From NCBI GenBank assembly GCA_031258155.1, contig JAIRNH010000005.1:1-44068 (forward strand): 44,068 nt of DNA. Reading direction: 5' to 3'. The notes beneath the pieces are model-generated. The model saw only the letters and a program-made list of their open reading frames with translations, searched no databases and was not told where the DNA came from. Shown piece by piece: positions 6,196 through 36,276 of this stretch. Numbering within the stretch: the first letter of the stretch is position 1; each line of letters begins with the position of its first letter. A program made the position numbers and the translations under genes. This DNA is from Helicobacteraceae bacterium. Its GTDB lineage: Bacteria > Campylobacterota > Campylobacteria > Campylobacterales > SZUA-545.

Positions 6196-7698
6196 TCACG
6201 CTTCTACCATCTGTACGATGATAAGGCGACCGCCTTCCTTACTATCAAGCAACAATCGTTTGCCTTCAAGCAATTCGACTTTGTCGCCTATCGCAATCTG
6301 AACGGATTCGCCTTCAGTCACATCAGTTAAGTTTGGTAACCCTTCATTAACCAGCCACCATTCGCCGTTATGTTGCAAAAAATAACCAATACGTTTTTTA
6401 CTCGCATTGTCCAACTTTTCATTTGGCGCAATCAGGCGATTCGCATGCCACCAAAAAAGTGATTGTCCAGACCAAACCATAATGCGATGATCGTCTGACC
6501 TAAAAGAACCTTTAGAGCGAGACGAATAAAGGTTTAAAACAGGTAATTTACCTTTATATAAAGCGCCACAAAAAGGGCATTTAGGTTTTGTTGAATTATC
6601 AAATACAAACCATTTTTGAGCACAGTTTGGGTTCTGACAAGGCTGAATCAAATCAATGGTTTTCACCAGCGCTATCTCCCAATCATTAGCGCTTGGACGC
6701 GCGGCGGGGTTGTGCAACCCATCGATAAAAGCGTGTTCAAAAAGTTTTTTAAGATATGGACCTGTCAGCATGTAAGGCAACTTGTCAGTATTTGCCCATG
6801 GAAGCTCCCATTTTTCAGCTCTATCTATTTTAATGCGATTTGACCTATCCGCAGGGTGTTCAATAAAAAGCGCCTTTTCACCCATACTTAGCTGCTCATC
6901 TTGCGCTTCATCGTTAATATTATGCACTTTGGCGCCGCGAAGCGGATGCCGATACAAAAGATACATATAGATCAAAACCGCTAAAGCATGCAAATCTGTT
7001 TCACGACGCGGAAGACAACGCAAAGGATCGTCTTTTTTGAGATGGCTTGTTTTAACCACTTCTGGCGCTATAAAATCTGGAGTGCCTACAACGTCAGGCG
7101 GATATTTCCCCGGCACAACCAAACCGTCCACGTCAATAACACATGCGAATCCGCCTGAAGGATCGACTAACACATTTTTGTAGCTTAAATCAGAATGAGC
7201 AAGTCCAGCGGCATGCATTCGTCGAATAGCGCGTGCAATTGTTAGACAAATTTTGAGATGATTAAGCCAGTCGCCAAGTTCTCTCGGATCTATGTGGCGA
7301 TTACGTAATTTGGGCGCGGCAAACCACTTACCCTCTTTTTCCTTACCTTTAATACCAAGAGTGTCGTTATTGATAGAACCGTACTTAAAAAAGAAATGTT
7401 TAGGGTATGTAGGCGCTACAATGCCTAATTTTCCGTTGTGTTCCAGCATAGCAGTAGGCCAGCAAAACAGATTTTTCCAATAATCGCCGCCAGCTTGATT
7501 GAATATGCTCTCTTTATATTTTCCGGTGATCATACTAAGACGATCTTTTGCTTGAAAATCCTGTTTGTTTTTATAAAATCCTACAACATAGGAGCGATCG
7601 GGCGAAAAATAAACGTCTTTCATTGCGCCTGAACCGATAATATTATCGTCCCACTCTACGTTTTGCCCATCGACAGTTTTTCCTTTAATTATTGCCAT
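6196..7698 (-). CDS. Ser/Thr-kinase-like protein with zinc ribbon and FHA-like tail
   Basis: 500 residues from ATG 7698-7696, which overlaps the end of the phosphatase gene by 14 bases; the longer open frame upstream is unlikely coding. The protein kinase-like domain spans about 1-345: glycine-rich GSGAMKDVY (22-30), catalytic-loop HSDLSYKN (168-175), metal-binding DVD (189-191) in place of DFG, and GTPDFIAPEV (205-214). Then comes a C-x4-C...C-x2-C zinc ribbon (354-378) and a C-terminal domain (379-500) with an FHA-like pattern. HSD in place of HRD and DVD in place of DFG are departures from canonical kinases, but Asp170, Asn175 and Asp189 are kept, so activity is plausible. It forms a pair with the adjacent PP2C gene. 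Confidence 0.9.
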   Translation of the reverse strand: MAIIKGKTVDGQNVEWDDNIIGSGAMKDVYFSPDRSYVVGFYKNKQDFQAKDRLSMITGKYKESIFNQAGGDYWKNLFCWPTAMLEHNGKLGIVAPTYPKHFFFKYGSINNDTLGIKGKEKEGKWFAAPKLRNRHIDPRELGDWLNHLKICLTIARAIRRMHAAGLAHSDLSYKNVLVDPSGGFACVIDVDGLVVPGKYPPDVVGTPDFIAPEVVKTSHLKKDDPLRCLPRRETDLHALAVLIYMYLLYRHPLRGAKVHNINDEAQDEQLSMGEKALFIEHPADRSNRIKIDRAEKWELPWANTDKLPYMLTGPYLKKLFEHAFIDGLHNPAARPSANDWEIALVKTIDLIQPCQNPNCAQKWFVFDNSTKPKCPFCGALYKGKLPVLNLYSSRSKGSFRSDDHRIMVWSGQSLFWWHANRLIAPNEKLDNASKKRIGYFLQHNGEWWLVNEGLPNLTDVTEGESVQIAIGDKVELLEGKRLLLDSKEGGRLIIVQMVEA

Positions 7699-9184
7699 GA
7701 TATTTATCAAACCATTGAATTGCAATCGTACGGTCATCATGATTTCCAGGAGACCAAAAATCAAGCCATTCGAGCAGTTTTTTGTCGGGCTTTTCGTCGG
7801 ATAGTATCGGTTCAATCTCTTGCCATAAAGCGTCCCATCTGACAGGATCGTTTAATCCGTTATCTGTCTCAAATTTTGGATCGCTAACGCCGTCGGTCAT
7901 TAAAAAAATAGCTTTTACATCCGAAAGTAGACCGATTTTGATTCGCTTGTTAAATCCATCGCCGTCTTGCAATATAGCGCGATCTAAAAAGCGCGTCTGC
8001 CCCGCATATTCGCCCTCGTCCGGAACTCCCAATACTTTAATTTTTACTTCGCTGTTTGGACTGTAAGCGGCAATTGCACCATCGCCAACCCAAAAAGAGG
8101 CGACAAAAACTTTATCGCCAATCTTTCGTGCAATAACCGCAAGTAGCGTAGTTGCCATATCTCGCGATTGCGCCGAATAAGATCGCGTAGAAGTTGTTTC
8201 TATAGTATCCACCGCGTTTTTTATGGCTTCTTGAAACAAGCTATATATTTTTTGCTGAACATTTTGCTTTTCGCCGTCCCATCGACTAATCAGAATGGAT
8301 AATTCATTACCGCTTGTACCTTTTAGCCGCTCGCTGATCAGTACGCCAACAGCATGACTCGCCTCTTTTGATCCAATTCTTGATAGTTTTGCGCTTCCCG
8401 CGCCGTCAGCTACAACCAAAACGCTCCAACCATCGTTATAACCGACAAAAAAATCGTCGTCTCGAAAACTGCCAACGTGCGCATGCGATCGCCCTCGTCT
8501 GCTTGCAGCAACTATACAAATATTGTTTTCATTAATAATCTTGCTATCGGTATGAGATTTTGGATACGGCAGATTTTGATCTGGCTCATTATTTTGCCAC
8601 AGATCGCGCGGATCTGGATTAATTATCAGCATTCCTTCTCCGCCTCGGGTTACGTTTGCCTCGGTTCTGTAATATACGTTGAACTTGAACTCGCCGCTTT
8701 TATTAGGTATTCCGCTAACTAGCTGTTTCTCCTCGTTGAAAAAGAGACCTATATCTTCCTTTTCAGCAAATTTAACATTTTCTATTTTTTTAATTTCATC
8801 ACCGTCCGTTTTAATAATCGCTTCATATTTTTCTCCTTTTTTCGCGTTTGGCAACAAAAATCGAATTGGTTTAATAATCTGTTTTATAGGATGTGTTTCC
8901 GCTACCTTCGCCCCTTTGTCGTTAAGCGTATTTTGATTTTCTTTGTAGGCTTGTAAGCCCTTAGCGTTTGCGTTCATATTTTCTCCTTTACAGGTTTTGA
9001 ATTTACTCCATTCATATTCGATCTGTTTGATAAAGTTTTGAACCGCTTCCTTTACCATTGGTTGTTTAACAAATTCGCTCAGATCGTTGTCCTTGATTTC
9101 GCCGCTAAATAATAGCGACTGATTGTCGCGCACCCTAAATATCTTAAAGGAGACGTCCTCTATTGTATGTTGTTCGTTTGCCAT
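7685..9184 (-). CDS. PP2C-family protein phosphatase with N-terminal extension
   Basis: 499 residues. The C-terminal half (about 225-499) is a PPM/PP2C phosphatase: VVADGAGS (257-264), a SFWVGDGAIAAY strand pair, LMTDGVSD and GNHDDRT supply the metal-binding aspartates. The first 215 residues are extra: a helical segment, then LPNAKKGEKYEA and SGIPNKSGEFKFNV, which look like an Ig-like (He_PIG-type) beta sandwich. No signal peptide or membrane helix. The gene starts two bases after the zinc-ribbon vWA stop, behind AGGA, and ends inside the kinase start. Expected to reverse the phosphorylation made by the kinase. Confidence 0.9.
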   Translation of the reverse strand: MANEQHTIEDVSFKIFRVRDNQSLLFSGEIKDNDLSEFVKQPMVKEAVQNFIKQIEYEWSKFKTCKGENMNANAKGLQAYKENQNTLNDKGAKVAETHPIKQIIKPIRFLLPNAKKGEKYEAIIKTDGDEIKKIENVKFAEKEDIGLFFNEEKQLVSGIPNKSGEFKFNVYYRTEANVTRGGEGMLIINPDPRDLWQNNEPDQNLPYPKSHTDSKIINENNICIVAASRRGRSHAHVGSFRDDDFFVGYNDGWSVLVVADGAGSAKLSRIGSKEASHAVGVLISERLKGTSGNELSILISRWDGEKQNVQQKIYSLFQEAIKNAVDTIETTSTRSYSAQSRDMATTLLAVIARKIGDKVFVASFWVGDGAIAAYSPNSEVKIKVLGVPDEGEYAGQTRFLDRAILQDGDGFNKRIKIGLLSDVKAIFLMTDGVSDPKFETDNGLNDPVRWDALWQEIEPILSDEKPDKKLLEWLDFWSPGNHDDRTIAIQWFDKYHGNN

Positions 9185-9186
9185 TA

Positions 9187-10224
9187 TTATCCTAAGGATC
9201 GTCCGACGTCGAAATCGCCGCCGCCTTCGCCTCCGAAAAACAGCTCGCTACCGCACCATGGGCAGGTTGCTTCGCCACCGCTTGTGCAAGTCAATTTGCC
9301 GCAATCGCACATTGCAAACGCCGAGTGATTACCGCAATATGGGCAACTTGGCGCTCCATCTAAAAGCGAAGTATTAACTTTGATCGCCGACGCTTGTGCC
9401 TGCGACCATTTGAAATACTCCTCGTCGATCATAAACGCGCCCGCGACGTCGTAATATGCGATCTCAGCTTTATGCTTTTCGCCGCCTAATTTGACGAGCG
9501 ATCGCTCGTATTTGATCAGATACGGCTTTTTTACTTTCTGGCAACGTCCAACCAATACTACGCACGAATCGTCAGTATTTGCTGGTAACTCTTTGACTAG
9601 TTTCAACTCAATTCCGTCAAGATCAGGTAGCGGGTTATTTTCCGCTCCTTCGCCTATGCTTTTACTTTGTGCGATCGTGGAGTCCGAAATCCACTTAATC
9701 AAAGCGGTATATTCGTTTTTGTCCGCTTCTTCATAAATAATCACATTTTCCGTCAGCTTTTTTAGCGTCGCAAAATCCGCCTCTTTTCCAAGACCAATAG
9801 CGATCAATGTAACTCTCCTAGCGTATTTTGCCTGCCAACGGGAGATTGCCGTATCGGTTTTGTCAGTAGAGCGTCCGTCTGTGATCAAAAAAACAAACGG
9901 TTTCCAATCCCCTTTTTGCTCAGTCGTAGTTTTTGCTACGCGGCAATCTATCTCGTCCATTAGTATATCAAGCGCCAATCCCAAACTAGTTCCAGCGCCA
10001 AGCGGCAGCTTTGGCGGATAAAACGAGTAGAGTTCCGTTAGCGGCGCGATAGTTTTGGCTACGCCGGCAAAAGCGATTACCGATATATAGACTGTTTCTA
10101 GCGCATACGGATTAGAGCGAAGCGCGCCGACAATCACACCCATAGCATTTTGCATCTTATCAAGCTTATCGCCAATCATCGACTCCGAACAATCTAGCAA
10201 GAAAAATACTGGGAGACGCCTCAT
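9187..10224 (-). CDS. TerY-type vWA protein with C-terminal zinc ribbons
   Basis: 345 residues. A von Willebrand A domain (about 1-205) has an intact MIDAS: DCSES (11-15), the GAGTS loop and ITDGRST. A linker region of unknown fold follows, then a cysteine-rich C-terminus (294-325) with CPYCG, a CDCG knuckle and CPWCG, as in TerY-C metal-binding domains. It ends glycine-rich. It directly precedes the PP2C and kinase genes, which is the vWA-phosphatase-kinase triad described by comparative genomics for Ter systems. Likely a scaffold that links the two enzymes to the TerD/vWA proteins. Confidence 0.9.
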   Translation of the reverse strand: MRRLPVFFLLDCSESMIGDKLDKMQNAMGVIVGALRSNPYALETVYISVIAFAGVAKTIAPLTELYSFYPPKLPLGAGTSLGLALDILMDEIDCRVAKTTTEQKGDWKPFVFLITDGRSTDKTDTAISRWQAKYARRVTLIAIGLGKEADFATLKKLTENVIIYEEADKNEYTALIKWISDSTIAQSKSIGEGAENNPLPDLDGIELKLVKELPANTDDSCVVLVGRCQKVKKPYLIKYERSLVKLGGEKHKAEIAYYDVAGAFMIDEEYFKWSQAQASAIKVNTSLLDGAPSCPYCGNHSAFAMCDCGKLTCTSGGEATCPWCGSELFFGGEGGGDFDVGRSLG

Positions 10225-10234
10225 TCATTCTCCT

Positions 10235-10876
10235 TTATATAACCACATTTACTTCAGGCGGAGGAGGCGGTAGATTTACCTGCTCCGTTAGTCCATTACT
10301 GCTCGAGCCGATCGATACTGAAGCTGAAACCCATTTGAAAAATCCTAGAAAAGCAGCGCTGTCCATAGTATCAAGCGTTACTACGCGATCGGTAAGTTCC
10401 AGTAGCGCCTCGCTCTTTGCTTTTGGACCTGCAGCACATGCTAAAATGGAACCGAAATTGCGTTTTTTGATCTCGATGATCGCTTTGCGATACATCTGTA
10501 AATCGCTTGGGTTGCCATCGGTCATAACAAATAGCAATGGTCGCCAATCACCCTTTGTCTCTTTCGTATTTTTTCTTACATCACGATCTACGCGCTCTAC
10601 TAAAAGCATTAAAGCGGCGCCCAAGAAAGTCGCGCCTGATTGTGGAACAATTATCTCGCCAAGCTGAACGTCGCTTAATGCCGTTAAAGGCATTATCTCT
10701 CTTGCTTCAATGTCGAACGTAATAATCGACATATATACGCTATCTAACGCATATGGATCTTGACGCATCGCGCTAAGCATCGCCTGTAATCCAACATTGA
10801 CCGAATGGATAGGCTCGCCTTTCATGGAGCCAGAAGTATCCAATAGAATATAAACTGGCAATCGCCTAACAGACAT
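10235..10876 (-). CDS. vWA-domain protein (TerY-like), second copy
   Basis: 213 residues from ATG 10876-10874, which shares one base with the TGA of the upstream terD (TGATG). Seven extra codons are open upstream but would overlap terD. MIDAS residues are complete: DTSGS at the N-terminus, a GATFLG loop and MTDGNPSD. The C-terminus ends in five prolines followed by EVNVVI. It pairs with the vWA gene at 11519-12160, which has the same length and the same tail, so the two look like products of a tandem terD-vWA duplication. Confidence 0.9.
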   Translation of the reverse strand: MSVRRLPVYILLDTSGSMKGEPIHSVNVGLQAMLSAMRQDPYALDSVYMSIITFDIEAREIMPLTALSDVQLGEIIVPQSGATFLGAALMLLVERVDRDVRKNTKETKGDWRPLLFVMTDGNPSDLQMYRKAIIEIKKRNFGSILACAAGPKAKSEALLELTDRVVTLDTMDSAAFLGFFKWVSASVSIGSSSNGLTEQVNLPPPPPEVNVVI

Positions 10877-11505
10877 CACAAATACCGTTTTAGCCAATCA
10901 ACAAAAGTATCGCTAGAATCAGGCGCTCCTATGGCGTTAAATTTCCATCCGCTTTCTTCTCGCTCCAACTCGGCAAATAGTAGTGATCTGTATTGCGAAA
11001 AACTTTCGCCGCCGCTTAGATCAAAACGAACCATTTCTTTGCCTTTTGCATCAACCGCTCGTATAAAAGCATTTTGTACTTTGCCGAAACTCTGTTTTTT
11101 CTGAATGCCCTGATATATTTGAACGACAAAGGCAATTTTTGCAAATTGCGACGGTAGATCGTTTAGCTTGACGATGATCTGTTCATCGTCGCCCTCTCCA
11201 GCGCCCGTACGGTTATCGCCCGTAAGCCAAATTGAACCGCTTGTATGACGCAGATTATTAAAAAATACAATATCTCCGCCAACCAAGCGATCATTGCCCG
11301 CATTGTGAACTTTACCGTCGCTGTGGCAAAGAAAAGCAACCGCGTCAAGATCGTAATCTTCCTCTTTAGTTCCGCCAAAAACGCTTGCGAGCAAACCTTT
11401 ATTATCTTCCTTGACATCCCAGCCAAGTCCAATTGTCACAAGCGAAAGATCGTTGTCGCTTTTTTTGAGACTAACGCCTTGTCCTTTTTTAAGTGAAATT
11501 GCCAT
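10876..11505 (-). CDS. TerD-family calcium-binding protein, second copy
   Basis: 209 residues. The TerD fold is shown by MAISLKKGQGVSL at the start, [23 protein letters not shown] and a FxKVQNAFIR strand; acidic residues in the two middle motifs bind calcium in studied relatives. It carries an insertion (about 35-50, KGLLASVFGGTKEED) absent from the other TerD here. Cytoplasmic. Thirteen bases follow the upstream vWA gene, with AAAGGA before its start. Confidence 0.92.
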   Translation of the reverse strand: MAISLKKGQGVSLKKSDNDLSLVTIGLGWDVKEDNKGLLASVFGGTKEEDYDLDAVAFLCHSDGKVHNAGNDRLVGGDIVFFNNLRHTSGSIWLTGDNRTGAGEGDDEQIIVKLNDLPSQFAKIAFVVQIYQGIQKKQSFGKVQNAFIRAVDAKGKEMVRFDLSGGESFSQYRSLLFAELEREESGWKFNAIGAPDSSDTFVDWLKRYL

Positions 11506-11518
11506 TTCGTGTCCTTTC

Positions 11519-12160
11519 TTATATTACGATATTGACTTCTGGCGGAGGAGGAGGCAAATCGTCTAATCCGCCGATCTCTTTTTGTGTCTGATCAACCTTT
11601 TGAGAGCCAGTTGTAATAGAGGCGCTAACCCACTTGAAAAACGCTTTAATTGTGTCAGCGTCTGCCGTATCGAGCGAAACCACAACCTCTGTAATCAACT
11701 TCAATGTCGCGGTGTCCGCGCCTGATCCCGCCGCGCAGGCAACGATAATCGCCGTTTTGACGTTTTTTAGCGCGTCAATACCTTTGCGCACGTTGTCGGT
11801 AGGCGATCCGTCCGTCATCAAAAACACTATAGGTTTCCAATCGCCCTTGACGTCGGGAGTAGTCTTGATAACTTCCGTCTCAATTTTTGAGGCAAGTAAG
11901 CTAAGCGCCTCGCCAAGCGCGGTCGCCCCGGAAGCGGTTATACTTGGCTGTTGAAACGCGCTAAGTTCCGTGAGAGGGACAAGCTGCTTTGCCGAGCTGT
12001 CAAAGGTTATTACGGAAAGATACGCCGTTTCAAGCGCGTAAGGGTCTTGCCTCAACGTTGAAACTAAAATTTGAACGCCATTTTTCACCGCTTCGATCGG
12101 CTCGCCGCTCATAGAGCCTGAAGTATCTAGTAGTAAATACACTGGTAACCGTCTAGCCAT
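11519..12160 (-). CDS. vWA-domain protein (TerY-like), first copy
   Basis: 213 residues, a nearly stand-alone vWA domain. MIDAS motif DTSGSMSGEP is at 11-20, the threonine loop is ASGATALGEA, and MTDGSPTD completes the metal site. The C-terminus is five prolines then EVNIVI. TerY-like vWA proteins of this length accompany TerD proteins in many Ter clusters and are thought to assemble metal-dependent complexes; no enzymatic activity is expected. The gene lies between two terD genes in a tightly packed operon. Confidence 0.92.
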   Translation of the reverse strand: MARRLPVYLLLDTSGSMSGEPIEAVKNGVQILVSTLRQDPYALETAYLSVITFDSSAKQLVPLTELSAFQQPSITASGATALGEALSLLASKIETEVIKTTPDVKGDWKPIVFLMTDGSPTDNVRKGIDALKNVKTAIIVACAAGSGADTATLKLITEVVVSLDTADADTIKAFFKWVSASITTGSQKVDQTQKEIGGLDDLPPPPPEVNIVI

Positions 12161-12172
12161 TTAATTCCCTTT

Positions 12173-12751
12173 CTATGCTACTTGCACGCCAAATTGTTTG
12201 CACAACGCCTCTAAACCGCCTGAGTAGCCCTGTCCAATAGCTTTAAACTTCCATTCGCCGTCTTTTTTGTATATCTCGCCAAAGATCATCGCCGTTTCTG
12301 TTCCGTAATCTTCAACCAGATCAAAACGCGCAATCTCTTCATTATTGTCAAGATTTACGATACGCATAAAGGCGTCGCCAACCTGTCCAAAATTTTGTCG
12401 CCTTGAGTCCGCTTCATGAATTGTCGCGGCAATCGCGATCTTCTCAATTTCGGCTGGAACTCTGCTAAGATCAACTTTAATTGCTTCATCGTCGCCATCT
12501 CCAGCGCCCGTACGGTTATCGCCCGTATGTTCGACTGATCCGCAAGGTGAAATCAACTTATTATAGAAAATGAAATCGCCGTCGTTGCGCACCTTACCAT
12601 TTTTCGTCAGCAAGAAAGCAGAAGCGTCGAGATCAAAATCCGCCCCGTCAGTCGAGCGCGCGTCCCAGCCAAGACCTACCAAAATTCGTCTGAGCGACGA
12701 ATCGAGTTTAGAAAGCGAAACGTTGCCGCCTTTAGCCAATGAAACCGCCAT
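12173..12751 (-). CDS. TerD/TerE-family calcium-binding protein, first copy
   Basis: 192 residues, the canonical TerD/E length. It starts [15 protein letters not shown] and contains [24 protein letters not shown] and [12 protein letters not shown]. The ATG directly abuts the TAA of the DUF475 gene, whose last codons supply the AGGAGG ribosome site. TerD-family proteins are linked to tellurite, phage and colicin resistance; the mechanism is unsettled. Confidence 0.94.
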
Positions 12752-13792
12752 TTAATCCTCCTGTTTTGATTTGAGTTTGTTATGTTTAGCTGATGACAAC
12801 AGAGCAAACGCGATAAACGCCGCTCCAATTAACCCCGTAACTACTTCAGGCACATGAACCACTATGCCCGCGAGCATTATTATTGCAAGCGCGCCTATAG
12901 CATAGTGCGCGCCGTGTTCAAGGAAAACGAACTGATCAAGCGTGCCTTTACGCACTAAATACACCGTAAGCGAACGCACAAACATAGCGCCTATGCCAAG
13001 TCCAAGCATAATAATCACAATGTCGCGCGTGATCGCAAACGCGCCGATTACGCCGTCAAAACTAAACGACGCGTCGAGAACTTCTAAGTATAGAAAGGCT
13101 GCAATCCCGCTTCGTTTAGCCGTTTTAACCGCTTGTTCGCCCTTTTCTTCATCTTCAAATAGGCTATCTAGCGAGCTAACCGCGATAAATAACGCAACTC
13201 CCCCTATGCCCGAAACAAGAACGCCCGCTTTTGTCGCCTCGTCGATTGGTAGCCAGAAATAGAGGCATAGCAACGTAACTAACGCTATTAAAACTTCAAG
13301 CGAATCTAGTTTGCCAAGTCGGCTCAAGCGCTCCTCGATCGCGCCAAGCCAATGTAGCTCTTTGCCGTCGTCTAAGACAAACGACAAAAACACAAGCAAC
13401 AGAAAAATCCCGCCAAACGCGGCGATCGCCGCATGCGAGTTGGACAGATGCGCCGAATACTCTTCGGGGCTATTAAGCGCCAATAATGCGGTATCAAAAA
13501 GTCCTGATCCAGTGGCAATCGATACGATCAGCACCGGAAACAAAAGCCTCATTCCAAATACGGCAATAAAAATCCCAACTGTTAAGAAGATAAACTGCCA
13601 TTTTGCGTCCATCTCTTTAAGCACAGAGGCGTTAACTACCGCGTTGTCAAACGAAAGACTAGTTTCCATCACGCCAAGAATCAACGTAAGAAAGACGGCG
13701 GTTAAAATGCCCGTACCGCTTGACCAACCCCAAGCGGCGGCAAGCGTAACGCAAACGATTGTAACGATAAACGACGCGTAAAAATGTCTCAC
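12752..13792 (-). CDS. DUF475 / TerC-superfamily integral membrane protein
   Basis: 346 residues, about nine membrane helices. The TerC-superfamily signature appears twice: VMETSLSFDNAVVNA (42-56) and DASFSFDGVIGAFA, with intramembrane acidic residues as in metal-transport relatives. It is the first structural gene of the Ter operon. Start is GTG 13792-13790, with GAGG nine bases upstream. Relatives of TerC have been connected to manganese export and to metalation of secreted proteins; the substrate here is unknown. An AG/CT repeat tract lies 50-100 bases upstream. Confidence 0.92.
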   Translation of the reverse strand: MRHFYASFIVTIVCVTLAAAWGWSSGTGILTAVFLTLILGVMETSLSFDNAVVNASVLKEMDAKWQFIFLTVGIFIAVFGMRLLFPVLIVSIATGSGLFDTALLALNSPEEYSAHLSNSHAAIAAFGGIFLLLVFLSFVLDDGKELHWLGAIEERLSRLGKLDSLEVLIALVTLLCLYFWLPIDEATKAGVLVSGIGGVALFIAVSSLDSLFEDEEKGEQAVKTAKRSGIAAFLYLEVLDASFSFDGVIGAFAITRDIVIIMLGLGIGAMFVRSLTVYLVRKGTLDQFVFLEHGAHYAIGALAIIMLAGIVVHVPEVVTGLIGAAFIAFALLSSAKHNKLKSKQED

Positions 13793-13825
13793 GAGGCTAA
13801 CCTCGCGAGAGTGAAGGGATGACTT

Positions 13826-14041
13826 CTACTCGGAGCGAGCGCAGAGAGAGAGAGTAGAGAGAGAGAGTAGAGAGAGAGAGAGAGAGAGAGGATTTCTAAA
13901 CTTAACCAAAGTTGAAGTTTTTGAATTAGTTAAGAGAGATCGTTTATGGGCGATCTCGCTAATTGGCGACAATGGCTTTACATAGCTGTTGTAAGCCGAT
14001 AATCCTGCTAAACTGATCCGTAATAAGGACAACGATTGCAT
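13826..14041 (-). CDS. possible 71-residue leader ORF containing a CT-repeat
   Basis: Open from ATG 14041-14039, with AAGAAGGA seven bases upstream and a TATTAT -10-like box at 14077-14082. It stops at TAG 13828-13826, 33 bases before terC. The last third is encoded by CT dinucleotide repeats and reads as alternating Ser-Leu. No domain is recognisable. The good ribosome site and position in the operon leader argue that it may be translated; the low-complexity sequence argues that the peptide itself may not matter. See the finding on repeat-length effects. Confidence 0.35.
   Translation of the reverse strand: MQSLSLLRISLAGLSAYNSYVKPLSPISEIAHKRSLLTNSKTSTLVKFRNPLSLSLSLLSLSTLSLCARSE
13843..13890. 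repeat. AG/CT dinucleotide microsatellite in the Ter operon leader
   Basis: Three runs of AG units, six (13843-13854), six (13856-13867) and eleven (13869-13890), separated by single T bases at 13855 and 13868. It is the only long dinucleotide repeat seen in the window. Tracts of this type undergo slipped-strand changes in Helicobacter and Campylobacter. Confidence 0.97.
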
Positions 14042-14603: not shown

Positions 14604-16046
14604 TTAGCCTTTTTCTATTTCCCGCTCCACCGTCTCTTTTGCCTCATCCAACAAGCGCTCTGATTCAGAGCGCAGCGTAAAACTCTTGGTGATTAAGGCG
14701 GCGATGCGGCGTTGGATTTTTGGGGCGATCAGAGGAATGACAAATTTAGAAATATCTTTTGGATAAATATAAGGTTGGGCTGTTGCGCTTTTGTGTTTTT
14801 CTGCCTGTAATCTTCCAACTAATGAATTTAACACTATGCCTAAATATACTGGGTCAATTTTTTTGCTATTTGCACGAATAAGCGTTATAAAACTACCGGG
14901 CATTATAGGTTCATCAAGCAGATAGTTGTGGCAATACCCTATATTCGCGCCGACAGAATAATACAAAATATCATTTTTTCGTGCAACGTATTTACTGTTT
15001 TGGGCAGCAAATTCTGCCGAAGTAAACGGATCATCCGTTGCTTCTAAAAATGAATAATCAATACTTTTATCACCAATCCATTTTTGAGAAAAAACTCTAA
15101 CTGTTCCGTTTTCAATGTATGGCGGCTGTTTCCCATGGTTGATAAAAATTGTCAATTCGGATAAACAAGCATGAGACATGTTTTTTATCTTGTTTTCAAT
15201 TTCCTCATACTTGGGCTGGTAATACTCCGCGTCCAGCCGCCCCGTTGTCAAAAACGATTCTTTGAAGGACTTGACGCTCTTGTTTTCCCGCGAAGGCTTG
15301 AAACCCTTTAAGCCTATGGTTTCCAGCAACAGGTCTTCGGCTTGGCGGTAGAGGGCTTGGGATTGTTCGCGTTTATTATGCCCTTTCTTGATAGTTGCTT
15401 CTATATGATTTTGAAAAGGAATAGATGGGATAGGGACTTTGATACGTTTTACTTGTGTCAATAATAAATTTGGCTGAACACTACTGATAGTTAATTTTTG
15501 AGTCTGACTTCTACCAAACCGAGAGTTCAAGTAAGTTGACAAATAAAATGGATTCAATATTTCTTTTGTTGTTATATTGGCTATTGCTTGATTAGAATTA
15601 GTACCTTCTGGTAATTTATAGGCAACAGAAGCATTCCCTATTGTTCCTGCTATAGTTAAAAGAACTTGATTTTCTATTGCTAAGGATTTATATAATGTTC
15701 TATGACTTAATTCCGCGTTTATTCTTTTCGCATTTTCCCAATTAATAATATTATCCTTTATATCTACAACATTGAGATATGGAACGCCGTTATCAACAAA
15801 TTCAATAAAATTACATAATGAGTAAGCGCCAAAATTGATAATAGATTTTGACAGGTTTCCCAAACAATCCCATTCCAAATTCTTAATCATTATTTCATCA
15901 AGAATAAATTGTTTTTTATAAAAATCAGAATCAATCCTAAAATTTTCATTTTCTTCATAATCTGATAATTCACCCAACATCACCTCGCTCGCTTCCAGCC
16001 CTTCCAACAGCGCCTTGTATTTCGCCTCGTTGAAAGGGCATCTCAA
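14604..16046 (-). CDS. hsdS: type I-like specificity subunit (HsdS)
   Basis: 480 residues with the usual two target-recognition domains (about 20-190 and 255-440), separated and followed by helical segments. The second domain opens with the typical RLDAEYYQPKY signature, and the first contains FRIDSDFYKKQF at the equivalent place. The frame opens with TTG 16046-16044, overlapping the upstream TGA, at the end of an eight-base A run (T on the coding strand). A nearby ATG is out of frame. It would direct its partner to a split DNA site; the site cannot be read from sequence. Confidence 0.88.
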   Translation of the reverse strand: MRCPFNEAKYKALLEGLEASEVMLGELSDYEENENFRIDSDFYKKQFILDEIMIKNLEWDCLGNLSKSIINFGAYSLCNFIEFVDNGVPYLNVVDIKDNIINWENAKRINAELSHRTLYKSLAIENQVLLTIAGTIGNASVAYKLPEGTNSNQAIANITTKEILNPFYLSTYLNSRFGRSQTQKLTISSVQPNLLLTQVKRIKVPIPSIPFQNHIEATIKKGHNKREQSQALYRQAEDLLLETIGLKGFKPSRENKSVKSFKESFLTTGRLDAEYYQPKYEEIENKIKNMSHACLSELTIFINHGKQPPYIENGTVRVFSQKWIGDKSIDYSFLEATDDPFTSAEFAAQNSKYVARKNDILYYSVGANIGYCHNYLLDEPIMPGSFITLIRANSKKIDPVYLGIVLNSLVGRLQAEKHKSATAQPYIYPKDISKFVIPLIAPKIQRRIAALITKSFTLRSESERLLDEAKETVEREIEKG

Positions 16047-18067
16047 AAAAAACTTAAGCCCTCCTTTTTGGCAAACTCGACAAAGGCTTCCGCTATGCCG
16101 TCCCGGGTTTCCCCGTTGTGGTTAAACAGATCGTGCTTCACGATTAGGTGTCCGTATTTATCCTGTAAAGGCTCGTAAATTTTATCTCCTGAGTTATCTT
16201 TGCCCGGCTCTTGCATGGTCGCAAAGAATATCGGGTAGTCCTCAACCTTGGGACAGAGCTTTTCGTCCCACTTTTGCACAAATAAAACGCTTGTTTTAGT
16301 GCCGGTGTGAGGCTTAAAGGTGTTGCCGTGCAAACCGACTACCGCCAGAATACGGCAACGTTCGGCGATAAATTCACGAATGTTTTTGTCGCTTGAGTTG
16401 TTAAACCGTCCCTGCGGTAGCACTATCGCCATGCGCCCGCCCGGTTTCAGAAAATCAAGGTTGCGCTCGATAAAAAGAATATCCCGCCCTATCTTGCTTA
16501 TCTTTTTCCCCGCGGCGTTCTTCGCTATTTCGTGGGTGGCAATAATTACATCGTCATCAATGTCTCCGGCAAAAGGCGGATTCGCCATCACTATATCGAA
16601 CTTAAATTCCTTGTTTTCGTTTGCTTTTTTTCGATATTTGATAAAACGTTGAAACCCTTCATTATAATTTTCCTGCCATTCTGAAGTTTTAATATCTTCA
16701 TCCCACCGCGTATAATCAAGCGTATTCAGCTTCAGAACGTTACTATGCCCGTCTCCCGCGATAATATTGAGCATCCGCGCCACACGCACGGAGCGCGGGT
16801 CAAAATCAATCGCAAAAATATGATCGCGCACATAGTTTATTTCCCGTTTTGAACGCGAAGCGTTTGTAAACAGATTGGGCTTGCTGGGATTGATCTGTCC
16901 CCATACATGCAATACGGCGTGCATAGGGAAGCCGCAACTTCCCGCCGCCGTATCGATCATTGCTTCTTCTTCCGTTGGGTTGAGCATCTTTACGCACATA
17001 TCTATTACATAGCGCGGCGTGAAATACTGCCCCTTTTCGCCTTTTGCCGCTTTGATGGACAGGTATTCAAAGGCGTCGTCCACGACTTCAAGGTTACTGT
17101 TAAACAGTTTTATATCCTGTAGGAACGATACGCATGAGCGTAGATGCGAGGGTTTGAGTTTTATTTTTGTATTATCGTCAAAAATACCTTTCCATTGACT
17201 GCACGCGTCTTCAAACAGTTTATTGATCCGCTTTTGCGTTTCGCTGTCATTGCCCGTGTCGCGGAATTCAAGCCTGCGGAAATTTGAGTCGTCGATAGCG
17301 TCCATCGCCGTCTTGTTGTTCAGTAGCGTCGCCATTGCATTAGCGTCATCTACGCTCATGTATTCATCGTAGAGTTTTATAAAAAGCACCTTAAATATTT
17401 CATCAAAACTGTCTTCGCCTGAATTTGCCATTACACGATCTTCAAATTCCTGAATAACGCCGTTTAGCGATTTCTTTTCGAGTTTGTCGTTTTGATATAG
17501 CTGTTTTATTGTGTAATGTACATTCAATACTTCCGAAAGCGTTTGATCCGCTCTGGGTAAATACGACAGCTTGTTTAAAAATGTTGTTTTTGACCGCCTG
17601 TCCTCTTCCTTGTAATAATATTCAATATCGCTCCCGTCCGTCCATACGCCGATAGACGCGCCCGAAAATTTGCAGTAGGACTCAAGTTGCTTTTTGCCTT
17701 CTTTGGCTGTCGGATTGGACGGGCTTTTTAATTCCACAATAATATATGGCTGGCTTGGGCGTTCTTTCTCAGATACGACAATATCAGCCCGCTTGCCGCT
17801 TGATCCCATCGTAACTTCGCTTTGTATCGCAAAATGGGCGCTTTCGTAGCCGTACTCCGTCATCAGCTTTTGCAAGTATAACTGCCTAACGACCTCTTCG
17901 GGCGTAAGGCGTATCTCTTTTTTACGGATAGAACATTCAATATATGGAACTTCTTTTCCATGTTTGTCTGTTCTGGGAAAGATTTTTCGCTCAAGCTCAT
18001 GGAGCTGATCGGACGCAAACTGCGTTAATTTATATTGGGAATCTTGAATAATATCAGACAGTGTCAT
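16043..18067 (-). CDS. fused restriction nuclease-adenine methyltransferase
   Basis: 674 residues from ATG 18067-18065 (AAAGG upstream; a TTG two codons earlier is less likely). The N-terminus is an HSDR_N-type PD-(D/E)xK nuclease with Asp95 in RADIVV, Glu112 and Lys114 in VELK. Residues about 190-330 are a helical HsdM-type N-domain. The N6-adenine methyltransferase follows: GQYFTPR (346-352), motif I DTAAGSCGF (372-380) and NPPF (496-499). No helicase domain is present and no separate HsdR is found in the window. The layout matches BcgI-like type IIB enzymes, in which one subunit cuts and methylates and the second recognises DNA. AT-richer than flanking host genes, suggesting acquisition. 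Confidence 0.85.
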   Translation of the reverse strand: MTLSDIIQDSQYKLTQFASDQLHELERKIFPRTDKHGKEVPYIECSIRKKEIRLTPEEVVRQLYLQKLMTEYGYESAHFAIQSEVTMGSSGKRADIVVSEKERPSQPYIIVELKSPSNPTAKEGKKQLESYCKFSGASIGVWTDGSDIEYYYKEEDRRSKTTFLNKLSYLPRADQTLSEVLNVHYTIKQLYQNDKLEKKSLNGVIQEFEDRVMANSGEDSFDEIFKVLFIKLYDEYMSVDDANAMATLLNNKTAMDAIDDSNFRRLEFRDTGNDSETQKRINKLFEDACSQWKGIFDDNTKIKLKPSHLRSCVSFLQDIKLFNSNLEVVDDAFEYLSIKAAKGEKGQYFTPRYVIDMCVKMLNPTEEEAMIDTAAGSCGFPMHAVLHVWGQINPSKPNLFTNASRSKREINYVRDHIFAIDFDPRSVRVARMLNIIAGDGHSNVLKLNTLDYTRWDEDIKTSEWQENYNEGFQRFIKYRKKANENKEFKFDIVMANPPFAGDIDDDVIIATHEIAKNAAGKKISKIGRDILFIERNLDFLKPGGRMAIVLPQGRFNNSSDKNIREFIAERCRILAVVGLHGNTFKPHTGTKTSVLFVQKWDEKLCPKVEDYPIFFATMQEPGKDNSGDKIYEPLQDKYGHLIVKHDLFNHNGETRDGIAEAFVEFAKKEGLSFF

Positions 18068-18183
18068 GATCAAACCTTTAGCAAATTTACACGACGATTG
18101 CGTATATTGAAACGCAAATTGTGCAAAAATGTAGCTTAGGCAAAGCGGTTTTTATCGCGCTGCGCCGCTTACTTTAGGCAACC

Positions 18184-34668: not shown

Positions 34669-36276
34669 ATGATAAAAAAAGAGTCGATCGAACTGTTGAA
34701 ATCCCGCGTGGATATAGTCGATCTGATTGGATCGCACATCGAGCTGAAGCGATCGGGCGCGACATATAAGGCGCGCTGCCCCTTTCACGAGGAGCGCACC
34801 GCCAGCTTTAACGTTAGTCCAAAGGGTTTTTACTACTGCTTTGGCTGCCAAGCAAAGGGCGACGTTATCACTTTTGTTCAGCAGATTGAACGGCTAACCT
34901 TCGAGGAGGCGGCGCAAAAAATCGCCGATCAATATAACATCGCGCTTGAATACGAAACGGGCGCGCGGGTGAAAAAACGCGATTACCGCCCGCTAGAGGC
35001 GCTGAAAACTTTTTTTGTCGAAGAGCTTAGCAAGAACGACGAAGCTACGGGGTATCTAAGATCGCGCGGGCTTAGCGAAGCGACAATAGAGCGTTTCGAG
35101 ATTGGCTACGCGCCCGATAGTTACGCGCAACTGGATTTTTTGCGGCGCGAAAAGATACCCTTCGAGGCGGCAAAAGAGGCGGGCGCGCTTGTCGAGGACG
35201 AAGGAGGCAGGTTTTACGCGCGTTTTACCAAGCGCGTAATTTTTCCCATTTACACCCCAAACGGCGCGATCGCGGGCTTTGGCGGCAGAACGCTTGTCAA
35301 TCACCCCGCGAAATATATCAACTCGCCGCAGAGCGAGTTTTTTAACAAGTCGCGGCTTTTATACGGATTTAATATCGCGCGCGAGGCGATACTAAAGCAA
35401 AAAACCGCGATTTTGTGCGAAGGCTATATGGACGCGGTTATGCTACACCAAGCGGGTTTTTCAAACGCGATCGCGACGCTCGGCACGGCGCTAACCAACG
35501 ACCATCTACCTTTGCTAAAACGGCTTGACGATCCGAAAATCATTCTCTCCTACGATAGCGACGCGGCGGGGCAGGAGGCGGCTTTTAAGGCTTCGGTTCT
35601 ATTGGCGGCGCATAATTTCAAGGGCGGCGCGGCGACAATCGAGGGCGGTAAGGACCCCGCCGACCTAATCGCCGGCGGCGGCGCGGAAACGCTTGCCCGC
35701 GCTTATGAAAACGCGAAACCTTTCGCAAAATACGCGGTTGAAAAAATTATCGATCGATCGCGCGATTTCGACGCGGCGTTTGACGAGGCGCAGAGCTTTA
35801 TAGATTCGCTCTCCAGATTTTCGGCGGAAGAGACGGCGCGATACGCGGCGGCAAAGCTGGCGATAGATTTCAGGCGTTTTAAGATTCGCGCCAAAAACGC
35901 GATCGCGCCCACGCTGTTAAGCGGCAAGCAGGATTTAGGCGAGCTGGCGCTGATAAAGACGCTCTCTTTGGACGGCGAACTGCACGCAAGCCTGATCGAC
36001 TATCTTGACGCGGCGCTTTTTTCAAGCCATCGCGATCTCTATAACGCGCTAATAAACGGCGATATAAACGCGCTTCGCCCCTTGCAAAGCGAAGATAGGA
36101 TTAAACCGCTAAACAGAGAGGAGACGTTAAACGCCATAAGGCGGCTGGCGGCGATCTTTTGCGAAAAAGAGGCGCGTCTGCTACGCGCCGAACGCGAGAC
36201 GGCGCGTATGAAAGAGGCGCTAAAGGCGATCGTGCGTTTGCGAAACGGCGAAATGATCGTCTTTAGACGCTTTTAG
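34669..36276 (+). CDS. dnaG: DNA primase
   Basis: Makes RNA primers at the replication fork. 535 residues. CHC2 zinc-binding domain with Cys37, His40, Cys57 and Cys60; the RNA-polymerase core with VIFPIYTPNGAIAGFGGR; the Toprim part with Glu251 in LCEGYMDAV and Asp296/Asp298 in LSYDSDAAG. The C-terminal helicase-interaction region is divergent, as usual in the phylum. The ATG has no strong ribosome site upstream. It converges with the next gene, six bases apart. Confidence 0.96.
   Translation: MIKKESIELLKSRVDIVDLIGSHIELKRSGATYKARCPFHEERTASFNVSPKGFYYCFGCQAKGDVITFVQQIERLTFEEAAQKIADQYNIALEYETGARVKKRDYRPLEALKTFFVEELSKNDEATGYLRSRGLSEATIERFEIGYAPDSYAQLDFLRREKIPFEAAKEAGALVEDEGGRFYARFTKRVIFPIYTPNGAIAGFGGRTLVNHPAKYINSPQSEFFNKSRLLYGFNIAREAILKQKTAILCEGYMDAVMLHQAGFSNAIATLGTALTNDHLPLLKRLDDPKIILSYDSDAAGQEAAFKASVLLAAHNFKGGAATIEGGKDPADLIAGGGAETLARAYENAKPFAKYAVEKIIDRSRDFDAAFDEAQSFIDSLSRFSAEETARYAAAKLAIDFRRFKIRAKNAIAPTLLSGKQDLGELALIKTLSLDGELHASLIDYLDAALFSSHRDLYNALINGDINALRPLQSEDRIKPLNREETLNAIRRLAAIFCEKEARLLRAERETARMKEALKAIVRLRNGEMIVFRRF

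Follow-up and report, generated by a model that had tools for sequence, protein, structure and literature searches.

Upstream of terC in a Ter operon of a Helicobacteraceae bacterium, we identified a short leader ORF that reads through a CT dinucleotide tract and is followed by a predicted RNA hairpin over the terC ribosome site. The reading that we favor, with a confidence that falls just short of even, is that this leader would be switched by its reading frame: ribosomes translating it would open the hairpin, and terC would be coupled to the leader in two registers of the tract and off in the sequenced one.

The window, by which we mean the whole 44,068-nucleotide stretch analyzed here, is contig C5 (JAIRNH010000005.1) of a 1.94-Mb genome, G000, whose nearest relatives among the genomes compared are metagenome-assembled genomes (MAGs) of Helicobacteraceae/Campylobacteraceae; the names of the isolates suggest that these relatives derive from termite guts. 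The first 77 bases of the contig (window 1-77) are almost pure C, interrupted by A and G, as is typical where an assembly has broken at a poly-C tract. The operon matches the gene content of known Ter operons (TerC/TerD/TerY with PP2C and kinase), and type I restriction genes (14604-18073) lie directly upstream of the leader in the same direction. The genes of the locus are as follows.

12752..13792, minus strand: terC, encoding a TerC/DUF475 membrane protein, the first gene of the Ter operon (Pfam DUF475 6e-111, TerC 1.8e-17)
13792-13790, minus strand: terC start codon GTG (homologues align from residue 1)
7685..12751, minus strand: rest of the Ter operon, comprising terD, vWA, terD, vWA, vWA-TerY_C, and PP2C phosphatase (Pfam, ORFs)
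6196-7815, minus strand: kinase-like ORF after PP2C (ORFs)
14604-16046, minus strand, same direction as the leader: type I restriction hsdS-like gene upstream of the leader (Pfam)
16043-18073, minus strand, same direction as the leader: N6-methylase with an HSDR_N domain (Pfam)

The leader, its tract, and the elements at the terC start occupy the following positions.

ATG 14041 to TAG 13826, minus strand: leader ORF, which encodes 71 aa as sequenced (ORF call)
14051-14047, minus strand: Shine-Dalgarno-like AAGGA of the leader (sequence)
13890-13843, minus strand: CT tract (CT)11-A-(CT)6-A-(CT)6, 48 bp (TRF score 78-89)
13890-13869, 13867-13856, and 13854-13843, minus strand: sub-runs (CT)11, (CT)6, and (CT)6 of the tract, with single A separators and a 13-bp higher-order unit
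13826..13828, minus strand: leader stop TAG in the sequenced register, ending 33 nt before the terC GTG
13797..13799, minus strand: leader stop TAG of the third register (tract shorter by one CT or longer by two), located in the hairpin loop with 4 nt between it and the GTG
13789..13791, minus strand: leader stop TGA with one CT more or two fewer, overlapping the terC GTG as GTGA
13787..13810, minus strand: predicted 10-bp RNA hairpin TCTCGCGAGG-TTAG-CCTCGTGAGA (fold z -3.8, -4.3; match in a terminator-like scan)
13804-13801, minus strand: likely terC Shine-Dalgarno GAGG, in the 5' arm of the hairpin, with the GTG in the 3' arm

The first-pass annotation had described a small ORF with a ribosome site that reads through the dinucleotide tract and stops 33 nt before terC, and both the ORF calls and TRF confirm this. 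Frame arithmetic bears out its further statement that one extra unit or two fewer would place the stop over the terC start as GTGA, giving a leader of 84 codons when one CT is added and 82 when two are removed, both of which end on GTGA. Relative to the terC start, the three registers end at -34, -5, and +3. Thus, two of the three reach the start, rather than the one originally proposed, and only the sequenced register leaves ribosomes well short of it. The broader proposal, that slippage moves ribosomes onto or away from the terC start, needs to be amended in this respect; it draws support from the translatable leader, the hairpin, the repeats in relatives, and the layout of a second leader described below.

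The CT tract is far beyond chance expectation, and the gain or loss of units shifts the leader reading frame, one of the properties by which an SSR-mediated phase-variable (contingency) locus is recognized. The (CT)11 run and both (CT)6 runs also reach the six dinucleotide units usually taken as the lower cut-off for mutability (PhasomeIt, PMC6321876). An amino-acid attenuator leader peptide would have a run of regulatory codons and alternative terminator/antiterminator stems; here, the Leu-Ser repeats of the leader peptide derive from the tract, and the hairpin at the terC start is terminator-like. Compared with the sister genome G001, indels in the spacer are multiples of three, and G001 keeps the stop, as TAA, at the place homologous to TAG 13826..13828. 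Between the CT tract and terC, we found no sigma-70 promoter (no match on the minus strand; best -10 TAGAAG, 4/6).

The GTGA overlap had been described as a classic coupling junction, but we rejected it as evidence. A stop adjoins or overlaps the terC start in two of the three registers, the sequenced one excepted, and such a fit is expected by chance: in dinucleotide shuffles of the 50-nt spacer, at least one register reaches the terC start in essentially 100% of cases. In the window, the overlap is forced by the AGA/AAA second codon, and terC homologues commonly begin ATGA or TTGA because their second codon is often Lys or Arg.

Comparison with relatives is more informative. The hairpin is predicted to occlude the ribosome site of terC, a position in which ribosomes on the leader could make a difference, and among the homologues such predicted hairpins appear only in those that bear a repeat. 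The window, G001, G004, and L038 (a locus in genome G399) have the four lowest fold z values among 36 terC loci (-3.8 to -4.6), all others lying above -1.6; at the other gene starts in the window, 16 of 17 values exceed -1 and one is -2.1. The window hairpin is also present in G001. Between the G004 and L038 hairpins, two of nine pairs are changed on both sides and none is broken, a pattern that is suggestive only, since it comes from two sequences, and the hairpin-bearing loci form two sister pairs and hence few independent cases. No match to the Rfam model of the yybP-ykoY (Mn) riboswitch, which occurs upstream of TerC-family genes, was found in the window or in four relatives, and a riboswitch upstream of terC was rejected.

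Could the hairpin instead be an intrinsic terminator, an attenuator that leader ribosomes would prevent from forming rather than a lid that they lift from the start site? Its 10-bp stem is followed by CATTTTT in the window and by GATTTTT in G001, as such a role would predict, but the T run coincides with a conserved Phe codon region of TerC, and the G004 and L038 hairpins have no adjacent T run. We consider this reading very unlikely.

The origin of the leader is apparent from its sequence. Its first ~54 residues match the N-terminus of a G004 lipoprotein (58% identity, E 1e-14), and at the DNA level, 13942-13856 is 93% identical to C59 of the same genome and 13987-13877 is 81% identical to G004:C86. 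In the C59, C14, and G004:C86 genes, a hydrophobic stretch and then a lipobox (such as LTGC or LVGC) come after the CT tract in another register, which is the layout of CT-switched signal sequences. Most assembled copies of these genes are out of frame; the window leader has no lipobox in any of its three registers. By sequence, then, it is plainly a phase-variable surface-lipoprotein gene cut down to its 5' end, with the CT tract as the point of junction. In G001, terC is 85% identical to that of the window, and the homology, followed upstream, breaks off precisely at a CT tract that is shorter in G001. Together with the lipoprotein matches, this break suggests that recombination at the CT tract gave terC its lipoprotein 5' end. 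The idea of a leader ORF serving as a switch stands insofar as the repeat lies inside a translatable leader, but the ORF is a captured lipoprotein 5' end and not one made for regulation. We likewise rejected a conserved regulatory peptide, because the leader comes from a lipoprotein gene and those of the other relatives are unrelated to it.

That homology to the sister locus stops exactly at the tract would also be expected if the assembler had joined a lipoprotein 5' end to terC at the CT repeat, and contigs of this genome often end at repeats, the window itself beginning in poly-C junk. Such a chimera is nonetheless highly improbable, even more so than a terminator. At 48 bp, the tract is short, and it is interrupted; the leader has a sequence of its own (at most 93% identical to its paralogues), and the contig names of sister assemblies (k119) suggest k-mers longer than the tract.

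Genome G000 encodes a large family of surface lipoproteins with a CT tract just before the signal hydrophobic stretch (for example, C3:72154, C10:455, C59:47757, and C14:1005). These tracts reach 17 units, and that most assembled copies are out of frame is as expected for phase variation. A second orphan lipoprotein 5' fragment (L174, G000:C33:10544-10604) has a short CT tract and no lipoprotein behind it; the sequence that comes next resembles the end of an integrase gene in convergent orientation. CT tracts are not confined to lipoproteins, since another (L178, G000:C53:24007) lies in the first codons of an acyltransferase-looking protein (RPDIDGLRAL).

A simple repeat lies upstream of terC in all five close relatives of this subtype (window included), CT in two and poly-C in three. 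G001 has six CT units without a convincing leader start, the G004 contig starts in poly-C 65 nt before terC, L038 has C14, and G013 has C15 about 119 nt before terC. The upstream neighbors of the five genes differ, where visible. From the genome-wide density of tracts, counted by sequence pattern, only 0.0005-0.0055 would be expected per 150 bp, and the L038 genome contains just six poly-C tracts of at least 10, one of which sits upstream of terC. Upstream of 31 more distant terC homologues, we found no comparable tract, a few having A8-A9 or a short AT run; a search among viral contigs yielded no further terC homologues. The lineage of G000, G001, G004, and G013 is very repeat-rich, with 33-46 poly-C tracts of at least 10 per genome; none occur in three other Campylobacterales genomes that were checked. 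A compound tract at L191 (G005:C5, about 36064-36101) has roughly 18 TC units that run straight into roughly ten GT units.

These relatives bear on whether the leader is simply a relic, a dead lipoprotein 5' fragment left by recombination at the CT tract and without effect on terC. Its plain descent from a lipoprotein gene, the other orphan fragment at C33:10544 next to an apparent integrase end, and a GTGA fit no better than chance are all in keeping with this account. It does not explain why each of the five relatives has a repeat upstream of terC, although the neighborhoods differ and one of the genomes has only six poly-C tracts, or why the ribosome-site hairpin, with its compensatory changes, is confined to repeat-bearing homologues. 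We regard a relic as unlikely, though it deserves to be kept in view.

A further alternative, which we judge slightly less probable than a relic, is that the repeat tunes transcription, its length setting the distance or helical phase between an upstream element and a terC promoter just downstream, with the leader ORF incidental. The sequences TATAGT/TATAAT occur 12-13 nt after poly-C in G004 and L038, G013 retains its repeat with neither a coupled frame nor a hairpin, and many poly-C tracts in this genome do not run on into a long ORF. In the window, however, the best -10 between tract and terC is the poor TAGAAG, and tuning of transcription leaves unexplained a ribosome-site hairpin that is found in repeat-bearing homologues and is absent from those without a repeat.

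The L038 locus provides a second leader of similar layout. It has GGAGG and an ATG, runs for 53 codons through the C14 tract, and ends on a TGA that overlaps the terC ATG as ATGA; in the remaining two registers, the leader falls 41 and 49 nt short of terC. Because this leader is unrelated to that of the window and its sequence is not repeated in its own genome, the layout was probably reached independently.

For the frame-switched leader that we favor, the course of events in the window would be as follows. Recombination at the CT tract would have placed the 5' end of a lipoprotein gene directly upstream of terC, and the captured module would comprise a ribosome site, an ATG, N-terminal codons, the CT repeat, and probably a promoter. 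Slippage in the tract would then set the point at which leader ribosomes stop. In the sequenced register, they would stop 33 nt short, the hairpin would stay closed, and terC expression would be low (OFF); in the other two, they would run on as far as the hairpin loop or the start codon, the hairpin would be opened, and terC would be translated by coupling (ON). The analysis shows the tract, the frames, the predicted hairpin with its restriction among homologues, the lipoprotein origin, and the recurrence of a repeat here in relatives; beyond these, the model supposes a leader that is both transcribed and translated, a tract of varying length, and a hairpin able to block initiation. Several features of the relatives count against this model. 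The TATAGT/TATAAT sequences of G004 and L038 could be promoters that skip the leader. G013 has no hairpin and no register that reaches terC, its C15 notwithstanding, which shows that the repeat does not always accompany the coupling parts; any effect of the repeat in G013 must come about in another way. G001 has only its six CT units and no convincing leader start.

Elements of this arrangement are known from other systems. A CT tract in the 5' region of the Helicobacter pylori gene oipA switches that gene (PMC10564699). Switching of the oipA/hopZ type involves a CT tract near the 5' end of the gene, Leu-Ser repeats in the signal region, and a change of frame, and the lipoprotein family that donated the leader appears to work in this way. 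The window tract differs in that it lies in a separate leader with neither a lipobox nor a secreted product behind it, and what would be switched is terC, farther downstream, which keeps its own frame throughout. With transcriptional phase variation by SSRs (Neisseria porA/nadA and intergenic Campylobacter tracts), it shares a repeat upstream of an intact gene whose expression could be stepped by tract length; unlike in those cases, the repeat here belongs to a leader that can be translated, a hairpin at the ribosome site lies downstream of it, and no good promoter separates it from the gene. With translational coupling or reinitiation at stop-start overlaps, it shares the NTGA overlap and a downstream ribosome site concealed by a hairpin, but here the coupling would depend on repeat number, unlike fixed coupling. 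In the open-access literature, to which our search was confined, we found no case of SSR-dependent translational coupling and no phase-variable control of any Ter system, in agreement with the first-pass remark that no such control is known to have been described for one.

We therefore propose, more tentatively than the mechanism in the window itself, a new switch design in which a slip-prone repeat in a short leader ORF, and not in the gene itself or its promoter, would decide the opening of a hairpin over the start of a whole operon, which may have arisen more than once (with CT and with poly-C), in the window by capture of the 5' end of a surface-protein gene, and which would yield a bet-hedged Ter stress response. 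If this is true, a detachable leader can serve as the vehicle of phase variation, and any gene landing behind such a module would become switchable with its own coding sequence unchanged. PhasomeIt recognizes an in-ORF and a promoter class of tracts (PMC6321876), and surveys that seek repeats only in ORFs or promoters would class tracts like these as inert. The Ter stress-response operon would itself be a contingency locus, which offers a testable idea about its role in gut bacteria, namely the random protection of a minority of cells.
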